Program-made: the position numbers and the translations under genes
Shown here: piece by piece, positions 27,665 through 34,589 of the stretch
How positions within the stretch are numbered: position 1 is the stretch's first letter
Layout of the letters: every line of letters begins with the position of its first letter
The notes under the pieces: model-generated
What the model saw: only the letters and a program-made list of their open reading frames with translations
Database searches by the model: none
Told to the model about the DNA's origin: nothing
NCBI GenBank assembly: GCA_024694055.1
Contig: JAILKC010000063.1
Span: 1 to 60,944, forward strand
Origin: Lachnospiraceae bacterium
Lineage (GTDB): Bacteria; Bacillota; Clostridia; Lachnospirales; Lachnospiraceae
Direction: 5' to 3'
DNA: 60,944 nucleotides

Positions 27665-28425
27665 GTTATCAGGATATAGACGGAGGGAAGGTACTTGTAG
27701 TAAGTGCCACGGACAGTTTTTTGGCGAAGAGTCTTGTGTCCAAGCTTGAGACCAATGGAATCGCTTCCGCTTTTTCCCACGGTGATATTAAAGATCTGGA
27801 TAAATACAGAAATGAGATCGAACTTATAGTTCTGTTCTTGAGTGAGGACATGGAGGAAATGGTGGATACACTTGTGTATCTTAAGGACTTTGCAAGTGAT
27901 GCCGATCGCAAATTCATTCTTATAGGAGATTCTGCTGAGCATGATATTGCGACCAAGACCATTTCCGCAACGTTGATTTTGGATTGGTTTAAGCGTCCCC
28001 TTGTTATGGATGATCTTTTAAAGTGCATTAACAGATATATGGAGGAGAACACGGGTGAGAACAGGAAAAAGACTGTGCTCATAGTTGATGATGACATTAC
28101 ATACATGCGCACCGTATATGAATGGCTTAAGGATGATTATCATGTCGGCATGGCTTCGAGCGGAGTGCAGGCCATAAGCTACCTTGCAAGGAACAAAGCG
28201 GATCTGGTGCTTTTGGATTATGAAATGCCGATCGCAAACGGGCCCCAGGTTCTGCAGATGCTTAAGAGTGATTCAGAGACAGGTCATATTCCGGTAATGT
28301 TTTTGACAGGGCACAGTGATAAGGAAAGTGTGCTTTCCGTTGTCGGCCTGAATCCGGCAGATTATCTGCTTAAGACCATAGACAAGGCCAATCTGCTGAA
28401 GAAACTGAAGGATTTCTTCGGCTGA
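27661..28425 (+). CDS. Response regulator with degenerate N-terminal REC and canonical C-terminal REC
   Basis: C-term 'VLIVDDDITYMRTVYEWL...LVLLDYEMPIANGPQVL...VMFLTGHSD'; N-term 'VLVVSATDSFLAKSL' lacks acidic pocket; 4-bp overlap with upstream kinase. Confidence 0.85.
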   Translation: MSYQDIDGGKVLVVSATDSFLAKSLVSKLETNGIASAFSHGDIKDLDKYRNEIELIVLFLSEDMEEMVDTLVYLKDFASDADRKFILIGDSAEHDIATKTISATLILDWFKRPLVMDDLLKCINRYMEENTGENRKKTVLIVDDDITYMRTVYEWLKDDYHVGMASSGVQAISYLARNKADLVLLDYEMPIANGPQVLQMLKSDSETGHIPVMFLTGHSDKESVLSVVGLNPADYLLKTIDKANLLKKLKDFFG

Positions 28426-28430
28426 TGTGG

Positions 28431-28459
28431 TTGCATTTTGTTGGTAGAAGTGTTAATCT
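28431..28459 (+). promoter_or_regulatory. Candidate promoter of the ABC-F leader
   Basis: TTGCAT-N17-TAATCT. Confidence 0.5.
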
Positions 28460-28656
28460 ATGAGAAATCAAAGAAAGGCACACATATAGTGTGTGGGTGA
28501 GGAAATGAAGATAAGATAATCAGATTTGGTGAACGCGGACTTAGAATTGTGGCCTGAAAGGGTCTGTTTGTGTATGCCGAATTGGATTATCGTATTCATT
28601 TTGAAGTCGCCTGTTAAGGATGCTTTTCGGCATATCGTGTCTTCATTTGTACGTGT

Positions 28657-28688
28657 AATCTGCTTTCGGTATGAAGCAGATTTTTTTA
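28657..28688 (+). terminator. Intrinsic terminator in the ABC-F 5' leader (attenuator-like)
   Basis: AATCTGCTT-N8-AAGCAGATT perfect 9-bp stem then TTTTT, about 70 nt before the ABC-F start. Confidence 0.8.
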
Positions 28689-28759
28689 TTGGAAATTTGA
28701 TTCCATAAAAATGCTTTACAGGTATGCGCACATACAATAACGGAGATGAGGTGATGTAT

Positions 28760-30298
28760 ATGGCACAGATACAAGTGAATGATCTGACATTTTCTTATGA
28801 CGGAAATGCCGATGATGTTCTTAAGGATGTGACATTCAATATTGATACGGATTGGAAACTGGGACTTATAGGCAGAAATGGAAAGGGCAAGACTACTTTG
28901 CTGAATCTTTTGATGGGACGTTATGAATATCGTGGCAGTATCAAGACAGACACACGATTTGATTATTTCCCATATCAGGTGTCGGAATCTGATCTTACGC
29001 AGAATACCGCGGATCTTTTTGAGAAATGGAAACCGCAGATTGAACTTTGGCAGGTGTTGATTCAGATGAGCGATCTTAAGATGGATCCGGAATGTCTGTA
29101 TCGTCCTTTTGGAACGCTAAGTTTCGGAGAACGCACCAGACTCATGCTTGCAGTGTTGTTCGCAGCAGATAACGAATTTCTCCTGATCGATGAGCCAACC
29201 AATCATCTGGATAGCAGGGCACGTGATATCGTGAAAGATTATCTTGTTTCAAAAAAAGGTTTTATTCTTGTTTCACATGACAGAGATCTTCTTGATGGTG
29301 TATGTGATCACGTTCTTGTACTGAATCGTTCATCAATAGAGGTTCAGACAGGTAACTTTTCATCCTGGTGGGAGAACAAGGAGAAGAAAGATGCTTTTTC
29401 TCAGGCCGAAAATGAGAAGCATCTTAAAGAAATTGGAAAGCTGAGGGTAGCTGTCGACAGAAGCAGCAGATGGGCAGAGAAAAACGAGAATACAAAGATC
29501 GGATTTGATCCGATTAAAGAGCCGGAAAGAAATATTTCTACCAGATCATATATAGGTGCCAAGACTAAGAAGATGCAGGCACGTGTAAAATCTTATGAGA
29601 AGAGGATCGGTCGTGAGATTGAAGAGAAAGAAGGCTTGCTTCAGGATATCGAGAAGGTGTCTGAACTTAAGTTGGAACCACTGAGATTCCACAAGGAGGT
29701 ACTTGTCAATGCATATGATATGTCGCTACGGTATGACGGTGTTTCTGAGGAATTGTTCTCCGGATTACGTTTTCAGGTAAAAAGGGGCGATAGAATAATT
29801 CTTTCGGGTGATAACGGATGTGGAAAATCGAGTGTACTAAAGGCAATACTTAAGAAACTGAATTATGGTGATTATGCCAAAGGATCCGGATTGCTCATAT
29901 CCGGTGATCTTGATGTATCATCCGGCATGAAAATATCGTATGTCAATCAGGATACATCATTTTTATCCGGCTCTCTTCGAAAACTCTGTGAGACCCAAGG
30001 CCTTAATGAAAGCCTGTTTCTTGCGGTACTAAGACAGCTTGATATTGGGAGGGAGCAGTTTGCAAAGAACATGGAGGATTTTTCCGAGGGTCAAAAAAAG
30101 AAAGTCCTGATAGCAGCGAGCCTGGTTACACCTGCGCATCTGTATATATGGGATGAACCGCTCAATTATATCGATGTATTCTCGCGGATGCAGATTGAAA
30201 AACTAATCTTGAAGTATGAGCCTACAATGCTGTTGGTCGAACATGATATCAGATTCCAGGAAAAAGTGGGAACAGATATTGTAAATATTTGCATTTAG
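28760..30298 (+). CDS. ABC-F family ATPase, Lsa-like (antibiotic-resistance ribosomal protection type)
   Basis: Two ABC domains: 'LGLIGRNGKGKTTLLNLLMG'/'LSFGERTRLMLA'/'LLIDEPTNHLDS' and 'LSGDNGCGKSSVLKA'/'FSEGQKKKVLIA'/'YIWDEPLNYIDV'; no TM; N-term 'NIDTDWKLGLIGRNGKGKTT' resembles Lsa group. Confidence 0.88.
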   Translation: MAQIQVNDLTFSYDGNADDVLKDVTFNIDTDWKLGLIGRNGKGKTTLLNLLMGRYEYRGSIKTDTRFDYFPYQVSESDLTQNTADLFEKWKPQIELWQVLIQMSDLKMDPECLYRPFGTLSFGERTRLMLAVLFAADNEFLLIDEPTNHLDSRARDIVKDYLVSKKGFILVSHDRDLLDGVCDHVLVLNRSSIEVQTGNFSSWWENKEKKDAFSQAENEKHLKEIGKLRVAVDRSSRWAEKNENTKIGFDPIKEPERNISTRSYIGAKTKKMQARVKSYEKRIGREIEEKEGLLQDIEKVSELKLEPLRFHKEVLVNAYDMSLRYDGVSEELFSGLRFQVKRGDRIILSGDNGCGKSSVLKAILKKLNYGDYAKGSGLLISGDLDVSSGMKISYVNQDTSFLSGSLRKLCETQGLNESLFLAVLRQLDIGREQFAKNMEDFSEGQKKKVLIAASLVTPAHLYIWDEPLNYIDVFSRMQIEKLILKYEPTMLLVEHDIRFQEKVGTDIVNICI

Positions 30299-30367: not shown

Positions 30368-31072
30368 ATGACACGAATTGCAGTATGTGATGATGAGGAG
30401 AAGATTCGCAGGGATATAGCCACTAAGGCAGGAAAGGCTATATCCTTTGCCGAGATCAGTCTTTTTGAAAATGGACAGGTACTTGTCGACAGTTTCAAAA
30501 AGGCTTCTTTTGATATTGTTCTTTTGGATATTGATATGCCTGAGATAAACGGACTTGATGTCGCCGGGCTTATACAGAATGCAGTTCCTAAACCTCTGAT
30601 CATTTTTGTCACAAGTCATGATGAACTGGTTTATGACAGCCTTAGATTTCATCCCTTTGGATTTGTAAGGAAGACTCATCTTGAGGAAGAACTGGACCGG
30701 GTGTTTGCAGATGCGGTAGCAGAGATGAATTCCAGAGAGAAGAGTATTTCAGTTCATACTGCCCGGGGCGATGTGAGACTAAGGCTTAAAGATGTACTGT
30801 ACTTTGAAGCAGATGGAAACTACATTAAGGTTTTTGTGAAGGATGAGTCAGATGAAGCCACGTACAGATTCAGAGACACCATGCAGGCTTTGGAAGCGAC
30901 ACTTGTGTCTGATGGTTTTGTGCGTGTTCATAAGGGCTTTTTGGTAAATAGTGAGGCAGTGAAGATATTTAATTCTGATAAATGTATTTTGACAAATGAT
31001 ATGGAAGTCCCCGTAGGACGTTCATTTTGCGATGAAGCCCGCAGAGAATTCATGAGGAGCACGATTAAGTGA
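30368..31072 (+). CDS. LytTR-family response regulator
   Basis: REC 'RIAVCDDEEKIRRDI...VLLDIDMPEINGLDVAGLI'; LytTR 'LKDVLYFEADGNYIKVF...FVRVHKGFLVNSEAVK'. Confidence 0.92.
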   Translation: MTRIAVCDDEEKIRRDIATKAGKAISFAEISLFENGQVLVDSFKKASFDIVLLDIDMPEINGLDVAGLIQNAVPKPLIIFVTSHDELVYDSLRFHPFGFVRKTHLEEELDRVFADAVAEMNSREKSISVHTARGDVRLRLKDVLYFEADGNYIKVFVKDESDEATYRFRDTMQALEATLVSDGFVRVHKGFLVNSEAVKIFNSDKCILTNDMEVPVGRSFCDEARREFMRSTIK

Positions 31073-31827
31073 TCGGAAGAAATAGGAAAACTGAGGCACA
31101 GTACGAAGAACTCCTTCAGAAATATGACAGACTTTATGCAATGCATTCCGAACTGGAGTTTCAGATGAAGGAAATAAAAGCCAACACGGACAGTATCAGG
31201 GAGCAGGATGAGGAAATCCGAAAGCTTCACGAAAACATACGGGCCATAAAGCATGATATGAAAAATCATCTTATGGTCACACTTTCATACCTGAATGATA
31301 ATGATCATGAGTCGGCGAAGCAGTACATTTCGCAGATATTAAATAAGTTGAATGCAGTTCACAGTTACATAGAAACAGGAAACTCATTGCTCAATCACAT
31401 ACTGAATGAGAAACTGAGTCTTGCCCGTGATAAGGGAATTGATATTAAGGCAGAGGTTGAGAATCTGGAGTTTAGGAATATGGAAAGCGTAGATTTTTCC
31501 GCGCTTTTAACAAATCTTCTTGATAATGCGATTGAGGCAAGTGTTGAGGAGATAGAGATAACTCAAGAAAAAAAGGCTTCCGGCTTTAATCCCGAACTGA
31601 CAGTTTCCATATCAAAACGGCGTGAATATGAAACTATTGTAGTAAAAAACAAAGTGTCAATATCTGTACTGGAAAGTAATCCTGAGCTTAAAACCTCCAA
31701 GGAAGATAAGGAAAATCACGGCAGAGGAGTAGCCCAGATAAGACAGATCACAGAGAGATATAACGGAATGTGCGACTTTTATGAAGAAGACGGATTCTTT
31801 GTTGCATGTGCGTTTATCCCTGTATAG
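31069..31827 (+). CDS. GHKL-domain sensor kinase, no apparent membrane domain (GTG start)
   Basis: 'IRAIKHDMKNHLMVTLSYL'; 'LLTNLLDNAIEAS'; 'KENHGRGVAQIRQITERYNG'; 4-bp overlap with RR. Confidence 0.85.
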   Translation: MIGRNRKTEAQYEELLQKYDRLYAMHSELEFQMKEIKANTDSIREQDEEIRKLHENIRAIKHDMKNHLMVTLSYLNDNDHESAKQYISQILNKLNAVHSYIETGNSLLNHILNEKLSLARDKGIDIKAEVENLEFRNMESVDFSALLTNLLDNAIEASVEEIEITQEKKASGFNPELTVSISKRREYETIVVKNKVSISVLESNPELKTSKEDKENHGRGVAQIRQITERYNGMCDFYEEDGFFVACAFIPV

Positions 31828-31842
31828 TACCGTTCATCCCAC

Positions 31843-31871
31843 ATCCCTTGTAAAGAGAAATTACAAGGGAT
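31843..31871 (+). terminator. Hairpin between GHKL kinase and ABC operon, possible terminator/attenuator
   Basis: ATCCCTTGTAA-N7-TTACAAGGGAT perfect 11-bp stem; T-rich tract (TATTCTTGTTTTT) downstream. Confidence 0.6.
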
Positions 31872-31892
31872 ATTCTTGTTTTTGAGATCGAT

Positions 31893-32789
31893 ATGATTAA
31901 TTTTGAAAATGTATCCAAATTCATACTGGAAGATATTTCCTTCAATCTTCCCAAGGGCGAAGTGGTCGGTCTTATCGGTGCAAGCGGTACGGGCAAGACA
32001 ACTCTTGTAAAGCTTGCAGCCGGGATCCTTAAGCCGGAGCATGGGAGAGTGAGCGTGCTTGGAAAGAATCCTGTATTGAATCGTGGGAAATATTCCACAA
32101 GAGTTGGTGTATTCATGACCGGAATACCCGTGCTTTCCGAAAGTGATTCAGCTCTAAACGGAATAGGAATCCTTGCCAAAATGTATGATATTCCGGAATT
32201 GGAATTTCAAAAGCGATATGATGAACTGTCACAGCTTTTTGGGTTCAGGACTTATGAAAGAGAGAGGCTTAAGGAACTGTCAGTTGGTCAGAGGAGAAGG
32301 ATAGAGCTGGCAGCTACATTTATTCCGGAACCGGAACTTCTTCTTTTGGACGAACCGGAGATTGGGTTGGATGAAGAGGCAAAGCAGACTTTGGAAGAAG
32401 TGATTAAGGAAAGGGCAGAACGTGGTATGACCGTTCTGATCACATCTCACGATCTACAGAGTATTTCCAATCTCAGTACGAGAATTATGATTCTGTCCCC
32501 GAACAGTGGGAAGCATAGCGGAATGATATTCTACGGAACTGAAGATGTGCTGCGACACAGATTTCTTCCTGTCAATCGTATGACAATAAAATACGAAGGC
32601 AGTATACCCATGGTGGATGATCTGCCTCTTGTAAAGTACAGCCTTACGCATGATGAATTTATCTGCGAGTATGATGAAAGATATGTTTCGTCGTCGGAGA
32701 TACTGACGGTTATTATGAAACATACCAGGGTTACAGATATCAAAATTAAGAAACCAGACCTCGAACAGATTATTTTAAGAGAAAGATGA
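31893..32789 (+). CDS. ABC transporter ATP-binding protein
   Basis: 'GLIGASGTGKTTLVKLAAG'; 'LSVGQRRRIELAATF'; 'LLLLDEPEIGLDEEA'. Confidence 0.9.
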   Translation: MINFENVSKFILEDISFNLPKGEVVGLIGASGTGKTTLVKLAAGILKPEHGRVSVLGKNPVLNRGKYSTRVGVFMTGIPVLSESDSALNGIGILAKMYDIPELEFQKRYDELSQLFGFRTYERERLKELSVGQRRRIELAATFIPEPELLLLDEPEIGLDEEAKQTLEEVIKERAERGMTVLITSHDLQSISNLSTRIMILSPNSGKHSGMIFYGTEDVLRHRFLPVNRMTIKYEGSIPMVDDLPLVKYSLTHDEFICEYDERYVSSSEILTVIMKHTRVTDIKIKKPDLEQIILRER

Positions 32790-32808
32790 GTCTCAATGTG
32801 GAGGAAAA

Positions 32809-33798
32809 ATGAGTTTCATTGAAGTAAGTAACATCAGTAAAACCTATAAGATCAGTAAGCGGAAAAGCGGAGTTCCCGGGATGCTCGCAAATCTGTTTGT
32901 GCCCAAATACGAGAATAAGGAAGCTGTTAAGAATGTCAGCTTCAGCATAGAAAAGGGTGAGATGGTCGGTTTTGTAGGCCCAAATGGAGCCGGAAAGTCA
33001 ACCACCATCAAGATGCTTTCGGGTATCCTGTATCCTGATACCGGAGAGATAAATGTGTCCGGGCTTATTCCATATAAACAGCGCAAAGAATATGTGAGCA
33101 GGATTGGCGTAGTCTTTGGTCAGAAATCTCAGCTTCAGTGGGACCTGCCCGTAATAGACAGTTTTGAACTGTTAAAGGCCATTTACAGCATACCTGATGA
33201 TGTTTATAAGAAGAATCTTGACAGATATATGGAAATGCTGGATATGGATAAGTTTATCAAACAACCGGTAAGACAGCTTTCTCTTGGACAGAGGATGAGA
33301 GCGGATATTGCGGCGGCACTTTTACATTCTCCGGAGATAGTATTCTTTGACGAACCAACGATCGGTGTGGATGTTGTGGGTAAGGATGCAATCAGAAATT
33401 TTATAAAAGATCTGAATGCTGAGGATGGCGTGACAATGATATTTACTACCCACGATATGCAGGATATAGAGAAAACCTGTAACCGATTGGTGATAATAAG
33501 TGAAGGCTCAAAAATATATGATGGAACCTTGGATGGTGTGAGAAAGCTACACGGTTCTTCAAGGCAGTTGGATGTGTACTTCATGAATGATTCTGAGGTG
33601 GCAGAGATCCCCGATGTGGAGATTGTAGAAGTGGATAAGAGACACAGTCAGTTTATCTTTGACGGTAAGAAGGTACATATAAATGACCTTATGAGCCATC
33701 TGCTTGGAACCTATAATGTAAAAGATATTAATATTTCCGAGCCTGATATAGAGAGTATCATAAGAAAGATTTACAGCAGAGAGAAGGTGGCGGGATGA
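32809..33798 (+). CDS. ABC-2-type transporter ATP-binding protein
   Basis: 'GFVGPNGAGKSTTIKMLSG'; 'LSLGQRMRADIAAALLH'; 'VFFDEPTIGVD'. Confidence 0.92.
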   Translation: MSFIEVSNISKTYKISKRKSGVPGMLANLFVPKYENKEAVKNVSFSIEKGEMVGFVGPNGAGKSTTIKMLSGILYPDTGEINVSGLIPYKQRKEYVSRIGVVFGQKSQLQWDLPVIDSFELLKAIYSIPDDVYKKNLDRYMEMLDMDKFIKQPVRQLSLGQRMRADIAAALLHSPEIVFFDEPTIGVDVVGKDAIRNFIKDLNAEDGVTMIFTTHDMQDIEKTCNRLVIISEGSKIYDGTLDGVRKLHGSSRQLDVYFMNDSEVAEIPDVEIVEVDKRHSQFIFDGKKVHINDLMSHLLGTYNVKDINISEPDIESIIRKIYSREKVAG

Positions 33799-34589
33799 GA
33801 TTATCAGCATACTATGCATATGCAAAGAAACAGTTTCTCTCAAGAAGCGCCTACAGATTTGATCATCTGATGGGGATTCTGTCGACTTGTCTTCAGTTTT
33901 TTATCTTTTACGAAATATACCGGACCCTTTACGGATCAAAGGAGAGTGTTGATGGTATTACAATGTCCATGATAACAACGAATTTCGTTCTGTCGCTTGG
34001 ACTCAGTGCCATTTTTTCACCGAATGATTATTTTGTACCGGGCAGGATCTGGGATGGAAGTATATCGACAGAACTTCTTCGCCCTATGAGCTTTAAGGGC
34101 AGAATGATAGCCGAAAATGTAGGTGATGCCTGCTTTAATCTTATATTCAAATTTATACCGGTTCTGCTGATAGCAATATTCACTACCGGAATGGAAAAGC
34201 CTGCAGGAATTGGAAACATGATCCTTTTTTTGATAAGCGCTATTCTGGGCTATGGAGTTCTTTGGACCATCAGTTTTCTGGTTCAGATGACGGCCTTCTG
34301 GCTTATAAATATCTGGAGTCTGATAACCATAAAGGATGTTTTTGTAAATGTCCTTTCAGGGATGATGATTCCTCTTTGGTTTATGCCGGACTGGATGGCA
34401 GGAGTTATAAAGTTTACACCATTTGCTTCAATATATTTCACTCCGGTTCAGATCTACCTCGGACAGCTCAGTATATCGGAGATAGTATTTAAATGTGGCG
34501 TTCAGCTTTTCTGGACGGTGATCATATATGCACTTGGAAATGTTCTCTGGAACAAGGGACAGAAGAAACTTGTGGTACAGGGAGGTTAG
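33795..34589 (+). CDS. ABC-2-type permease
   Basis: 6-TM-like protein; 4-bp overlap with ATPase gene. Confidence 0.85.
   Translation: MRLSAYYAYAKKQFLSRSAYRFDHLMGILSTCLQFFIFYEIYRTLYGSKESVDGITMSMITTNFVLSLGLSAIFSPNDYFVPGRIWDGSISTELLRPMSFKGRMIAENVGDACFNLIFKFIPVLLIAIFTTGMEKPAGIGNMILFLISAILGYGVLWTISFLVQMTAFWLINIWSLITIKDVFVNVLSGMMIPLWFMPDWMAGVIKFTPFASIYFTPVQIYLGQLSISEIVFKCGVQLFWTVIIYALGNVLWNKGQKKLVVQGG

Follow-up and report, generated by a model that had tools for sequence, protein, structure and literature searches.

The window, the whole 60,944-nucleotide stretch of Lachnospiraceae DNA analysed here, carries on its forward strand an ABC-F gene preceded by a leader (28431-28687) that lies between it and an upstream response-regulator gene ending at 28425. 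The ABC-F protein scores 428.7 bits against the NCBIfam model for ribosomal protection-like ABC-F proteins (NF000355, cut-off 380), and among proteins of solved structure it is closest to Lsa(A) (7nhk, E 2.6e-105). The best-scoring model is that for Lsa (NF000167); because the score of 595.1 bits does not reach the curated cut-off of 750, we call the protein only "Lsa-like". The gene starts with ATG in the arrangement GAGGTGA-N5-ATG, and its Shine-Dalgarno (SD) sequence lies about 60 nt past the leader terminator, largely open in the fold of the window. Directly 3' of the gene (30368-34589) the translations read as a LytTR-type response regulator, a sensor kinase and ABC transporter genes, which could be co-transcribed with the ABC-F gene or form a separate peptide-sensing system. 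The features of the locus are as follows.

28431-28459, + strand: leader promoter (-35 TTGCAT 28431-28436, N17, -10 TAATCT 28454-28459, extended TG 28451-28452)
28472-28500, + strand: uORF ribosome-binding site split by a hairpin (AGAAAGG 28472-28478, hairpin 28479-28493, GGTGA 28496-28500)
28505-28519, + strand: uORF ATG AAG ATA AGA TAA (MKIR*)
28515-28540, + strand: anti-antiterminator 5' strand, beginning inside the uORF and taking in its stop codon; pairs with 28566-28591
28551-28564, + strand: small hairpin (GGCC/GGTC) capping the anti-antiterminator
28566-28591, + strand: anti-antiterminator 3' strand, overlapping arm 1 of the antiterminator
28573-28608, + strand: antiterminator 5' strand (arm 1); pairs with 28639-28673
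28626-28634, + strand: arm 2, TTCGGCATA, partner of 28573-28581; accessory, class A leaders only
28639-28673, + strand: antiterminator 3' strand (arm 3), including the terminator 5' half and loop
28657-28687, + strand: intrinsic terminator (stem 28657-28682, 9-10 bp, 8-nt loop, T7 28681-28687)
28748-28754, + strand: SD of the ABC-F gene, GAGGTGA, mostly unpaired in folding
28760-30298, + strand: Lsa-like ABC-F gene, 512 aa, identified by NCBIfam and solved-structure matches

Homologous leaders were sought with nhmmer among 80 relatives from genome contigs together with those in 60 relative genomes. Matches to the leader were found at 71 loci, the window's own copy included, and at about 65 homologous Lachnospiraceae loci the match runs from promoter to terminator, with promoter, uORF, long-range pairings and terminator all kept. 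The covariance search over homologous leaders, which an earlier note on this DNA had named as a check, thus came out in favor of its proposal: terminator and uORF are conserved, and the helices covary. The distance from terminator to gene varies widely among homologs, often with inserted repeats, and for this reason we regard the leader as a unit selected for itself.

The promoter is too weak to be detected in a consensus scan. The TTGCAT-N17-TAATCT elements that had been proposed are nonetheless present in the sequence, and their position is conserved: a TTGnnn-N16-18-TAnnnT arrangement lies 5' of the uORF SD in 55 of 61 homologous leaders, compared to 3.4 expected from shuffled sequences, and the extended TGn occurs in 53 of the 61. 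Downstream follows a small hairpin, CACAC (28479-28483) with GTGTG (28489-28493), in which 91.8% of alignment cells are paired and three of the four outer pairs show changes on both sides among the homologous leaders. The CACACA/TGTGTG hairpin of the earlier note is therefore real and covarying, although its placement at about 28480-28497 was slightly off. Homologs share the pattern GAAAGG, hairpin, N1-3, GGTGA, 3-5 nt, ATG; from this sequence pattern we infer that the hairpin joins two halves of one SD, with a predicted match to the anti-SD. By reading, class C leaders lacking the hairpin (L165-L170, for example) have a contiguous GAGAGGTGA-like SD. GTG starts at 28489, 28491 and 28493, which overlap the hairpin, were considered and rejected, its sequence and length varying freely among homologs.

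The four-codon uORF was read correctly in the earlier note, down to its exact coordinates, and every one of the 78 leaders in the covariance-model alignment keeps a short in-frame uORF (15 nt in 68, 12 nt in eight and 9 nt in two). Doubt had been cast on it by a seemingly short spacing between SD and ATG. The spacing is normal if the SD is GGTGA (28496-28500), 4 nt before the ATG, and the concern then disappears; the ABC-F gene has GAGGTGA as its own SD. The 78 leaders encode 26 different peptides, mostly of the form M-X-X-R (MKNR, MIIR, MINR, MKIR, MEIR). Arg is the final residue in 69 of 78, encoded by AGA in 59 and by CGA in ten; some uORFs end MXX* or MK*, with no Arg. Stop codons are exchanged as well (TAA 46, TAG 19, TGA 13). 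Whole-codon length differences, synonymous Arg codons and the exchange of stops argue for translation, and on these comparative grounds we consider MKIR* a genuine uORF.

The two pairings that form the switch, 28515-28540 with 28566-28591 and 28573-28608 with 28639-28673, had been missed in the earlier note. The anti-antiterminator comprises 24 pairs in a single register, with 95.7% of cells paired, a figure that falls to 31-44% when the strands are slid; given 49 leaders, RNAalifold predicts both this helix and the terminator unprompted. Cells with changes on both sides of a pair number 21 against 5.6 in shuffled alignments; for this helix alone, extra pair types do not exceed those of shuffles (457/500). 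A change of stop codon from TAA to TGA covaries with a change from ATTATC to ATCATC (A-U 41, G-C 7). The small tip hairpin is paired in 90.8% of cells, with both-side changes in three of four pairs. The terminator, also located in the earlier note, is conserved across homologous leaders, with 98.1% of cells paired and both-side changes in four of nine pairs. Taken together, the helices of the terminated state have 95.6% of cells paired and 52 double-change cells, compared to 12.3 in shuffles; those of the antiterminator state have 90.6% paired and 73 double-change cells, compared to 25.4. The antiterminator shares a strand with the anti-antiterminator, and its formation takes the terminator apart; several antiterminator core pairs are kept in 49/49 leaders. 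Arm 1 thus has up to three alternative partners, which is why it is the most invariant part of the leader and why changes in its partners are mostly G-U compatible.

Each of the 49 leaders was folded without constraint and again with a segment the size of a ribosome barred from pairing; these are equilibrium folds, and co-transcriptional kinetics lie outside their scope. In free folds the terminator exceeds a probability of 0.5 in 48 of 49 leaders and the anti-antiterminator forms in 47-48 of them. With a mask reaching +15 of codon 4 (through 28529) the antiterminator exceeds 0.5 in 29 of 49, and the terminator probability loses more than 0.3 in 30 leaders without rising in any; for the window leader it goes from 1.00 to 0.01. 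Under realistic ribosome footprints the terminator is below 0.5 in 28/49. When a control mask was placed over the SD hairpin, the loop of the helix or the linker downstream, the terminator was unaffected. A mask for an AUG-stalled ribosome removes the terminator in the window leader, but in only 8-11 of 49 homologs. The codon-4 mask is needed for 28-30 of the 49, the remainder not flipping in equilibrium folding; because the AUG-stall mask works in so few homologs, a stall late in the uORF fits better. Among 41 distant leaders a uORF mask lowers the terminator in 19 and an upstream control mask in none; half of these leaders do not flip, partly owing to crude terminator finding.

The 9-bp stem 28573-28581/28626-28634 had been described with exact coordinates, and 93.7% of its cells are paired in the 49 leaders. 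As the main switch it was rejected: it is conserved in class A only, absent from free folds and present in 18/49 masked folds, and so is accessory. Arm 2 repeats the sequence of the terminator loop and, in those 18 masked folds, captures arm 1; perhaps it serves to raise the induction threshold.

We consider it very probable that the leader is a uORF-dependent transcription attenuator of the ABC-F gene, freed by a drug-stalled ribosome. The conserved frame, the covarying helices and the folding masks support what the earlier note had proposed, a ribosome-mediated attenuator with a short leader ORF, and the leader's specific association with ABC-F genes speaks for it as well. Transcription would start near 28466, as judged from the -10 element, and a ribosome would load on the four-codon uORF. 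If it finishes and leaves, 28515-28540 would pair with 28566-28591; this anti-antiterminator would hide arm 1, allowing the terminator at 28657-28687 to form and transcription to stop before the ABC-F gene. A drug that arrests translation within the first few codons would leave the ribosome stalled on the uORF, covering 28515-28529; freed arm 1 would then pair with 28639-28673, including the terminator 5' half, and RNA polymerase would read through into the ABC-F gene. We infer the stalling on the uORF, the drugs that cause it and the protection afforded by the ABC-F protein. To judge from the type of gene downstream and from vmlR and cplR (PMC9226507, PMC10201436), the inducer may be a lincosamide, a streptogramin A or a pleuromutilin.

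Three other explanations bear on the same features. The terminator might simply end the upstream two-component operon, with the ABC-F gene served by a plain promoter and the hairpins incidental. The response-regulator gene, ending at 28425, is near enough for its terminator to lie here, and by chance 2.3 T-rich, terminator-like sites are expected in 3.5 kb; the leader nevertheless has its own conserved promoter, and across two ABC-F families its alternative helices covary and its uORF keeps frame, which makes this explanation highly improbable. As for the working uORF, the earlier note had offered ATG 28574, reading through the terminator, as an alternative. Its frame is indeed open in the window through 28708, but 18 of 49 homologs carry an in-frame TAG at codon 4, some have an indel or no ATG at all (L084, L020), and there is no SD; we reject this candidate as next to impossible.

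The leader might also sense something other than a drug, as a metabolite- or protein-binding switch or as an attenuator responding to arginine supply through its Arg codon. In favor of this are the high sequence conservation of class A arm 1 and the prevalence of AGA or CGA as last sense codon (the 69 of 78 leaders above). The alternative partners of arm 1, which vary together from one class to the next, account however for its conservation. No match to the leader was found in Rfam 15 at gathering score, weaker E-value matches being attributable to chance; this counts against such a switch, and identity with a known riboswitch or attenuator was rejected on the same ground. For an amino-acid attenuator, one codon of the amino acid would be few, and here there is a single Arg codon, which is missing from the leaders ending MXX* or MK*; moreover, the genes downstream are almost all ABC-F genes and none is arginine-related. 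A switch of this kind is very unlikely, and we retain the drug-responsive attenuator.

The closest parallel is vmlR of Bacillus subtilis, in which experiments showed that lincomycin-stalled ribosomes on the uORF MIN prevent the anti-antiterminator (PMC9226507). There, too, a very short uORF (Met-Ile-Asn; MDN, MDK and MRK in relatives) with the SD AGAAGGG lies within a first stem-loop acting as anti-antiterminator, with an alternative antiterminator and an intrinsic terminator before an ARE ABC-F gene (PMC9226507). All of these features recur here: a very short uORF with its own SD at the leader start (78/78), embedded with its stop codon in the anti-antiterminator helix; an antiterminator that, on comparative and computational evidence, is mutually exclusive with both anti-antiterminator and terminator; and an intrinsic terminator between uORF and ABC-F gene. 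The present leader differs in its usual M-X-X-Arg-stop, in the SD split by a covarying hairpin and, in class A, in the second, 9-bp capture arm. In vmlR, SL-4 hides the gene's SD, whereas no conserved hairpin covers the ABC-F SD here; the two leaders are compared by architecture rather than by sequence homology. The cplR leader of Clostridioides difficile likewise has a few-codon uORF (MR[I/M]) sequestered in a 5' hairpin and a terminator before a PLSA-type ABC-F gene, and combines transcription with translation attenuation (PMC10201436); it serves another ABC-F family, has another uORF consensus, and its terminator stem sequesters the gene's SD. Sequestration of the main gene's SD by a leader hairpin, a narrower feature of the vmlR and cplR kind, was not found in the window fold. 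The open SD and the varying distance from terminator to start lower only the claim that the leader type is identical to that of vmlR or cplR.

A tetrapeptide uORF also precedes the Lsa-family gene lsaA, with the consensus MAGN rather than M-X-X-R (PMC10201436); the comparison is by consensus, Lsa(A) being only the nearest solved relative. Streptococcal msrD is described as an ABC-F gene under macrolide-dependent regulation, exerted by ribosomes that the drug stalls on a leader peptide (PMC10314930); the uORF here has 3-4 codons with variable residues. M-X-X-R is, by sequence, different from the published ABC-F uORF consensuses (MIN for vmlR, MK[L/Q] for vmlR2, MR[I/M] for cplR, MAGN for lsaA; PMC10201436), and we found no description of an M-X-X-R attenuator in Lachnospiraceae in the open-access literature. 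The leader appears to work as vmlR does; what is notable is its spread across the family and over unrelated ABC-F genes.

In order to follow this spread, covariance models (R1, then R2) were built on uORF and helix only, without the gene. Within the family, 53 of the 397 genomes and 50 of the 334 genera have a match; of 391 genomes sampled across the class, 11 contain the element, only three of them outside Lachnospiraceae. The matches inspected extend to E 0.01, and nearly all of them stand before ABC-F genes. These are Lsa-like or belong to a second type (ABCF2) about 22% identical to the Lsa-like one, with a third type seen once (L152). Many ABC-F homologs have no recognised leader, 39 Lsa-like loci being unclassified by a loose pattern. 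In class B leaders arm 1 is TACGCTTAA, not TATGCCGAA, and the loop of the terminator is TTGCGTATGC, not TTCGGTATG, with pairing kept; arm 2 has no counterpart in class B (both by reading). The regular expressions that assign arm classes are loose (L053 and L177 were misassigned), and the loci cited here are those checked by eye: ABCF2 genes with class A arms at L118, L120, L129, L130 and L135, and Lsa-like genes with class B arms at L092, L093, L128, L133, L163 and L172. Arm class and gene family are thus not strictly linked; either leaders moved between genes or arms changed in parallel.

These data can be read as a portable, family-wide antibiotic-sensing RNA module: an M-X-X-R uORF switch outside Rfam that has spread across Lachnospiraceae and come to precede at least two divergent ABC-F families and, now and then, genes of other kinds (DJ-1/PfpI, a P-loop/GNAT fusion). 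From class to class its alternative arms differ in a coordinated way, and a structural hairpin splits its SD. For this wider reading we judge the balance to be even. We regard the leader as a new family-wide attenuator RNA absent from Rfam 15. The covariance model defines it as an RNA family and ties ABC-F genes, in a bacterial family dominant in rumen and gut, to putative induction by drugs; such inducible resistance would escape gene-presence screens and inducer-free growth tests. Because the leader is found independently of the gene, the model points to uncharacterised ABC-F groups and other genes that likely answer ribosome-targeting drugs, and if the portable-module reading is true the leader could be used to find unknown resistance genes. 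The conserved Arg-stop with variable codons 2 and 3 provides a natural data set on ribosome stalling at first codons, a question raised in PMC10201436.

The ABCF2 proteins (about 519 aa; L118, L120, L122-L127, L129-L132, L139, L140 and L143:2541-4100) have Uup, Lmo0919 and VmlR as nearest solved relatives; the incomplete copies scanned missed all NCBIfam resistance cut-offs. Judged from its leader, the gene suggests inducible resistance. Class C leaders (L160, L165-L170, L173, L175) have tripeptide-type uORFs (MRR*, MKR*, MIR*, MRK*) and a second terminator downstream; because the stem spanning the uORF ends in CUCUCUUUUU, this helix may itself be an intrinsic terminator.

Departures from the usual arrangement were seen at several loci. 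At L055 (2781-3012) the leader lacks the terminator 3' half, and its ABC-F gene is probably expressed constitutively. Leaders stand before an ABC-F gene broken by an internal deletion (L134), before a transposase (L136) and with no ABC-F gene nearby (L153/L179); they are perhaps remnants of lost genes. At L137/L141 (G344:C112, 74249-74349) a leader with uORF MIF*, its terminator and antiterminator arms seemingly intact, precedes a 192-aa DJ-1/PfpI gene downstream of rplQ. A class C leader at L175/L178 (G243:C17, 3882-3992) precedes a fusion gene of P-loop kinase-like and GNAT-like acetyltransferase parts; its P-loop part has a relative behind the ABCF2 gene of L143, adjoining an MFS transporter. 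Finally, L151 (G724:C19:2724-2832), from a genome in a different family of the same class, combines a strong leader match at E 4.8e-9 with an ABCF2 gene 70% identical, and leader and gene there were likely acquired by horizontal transfer.
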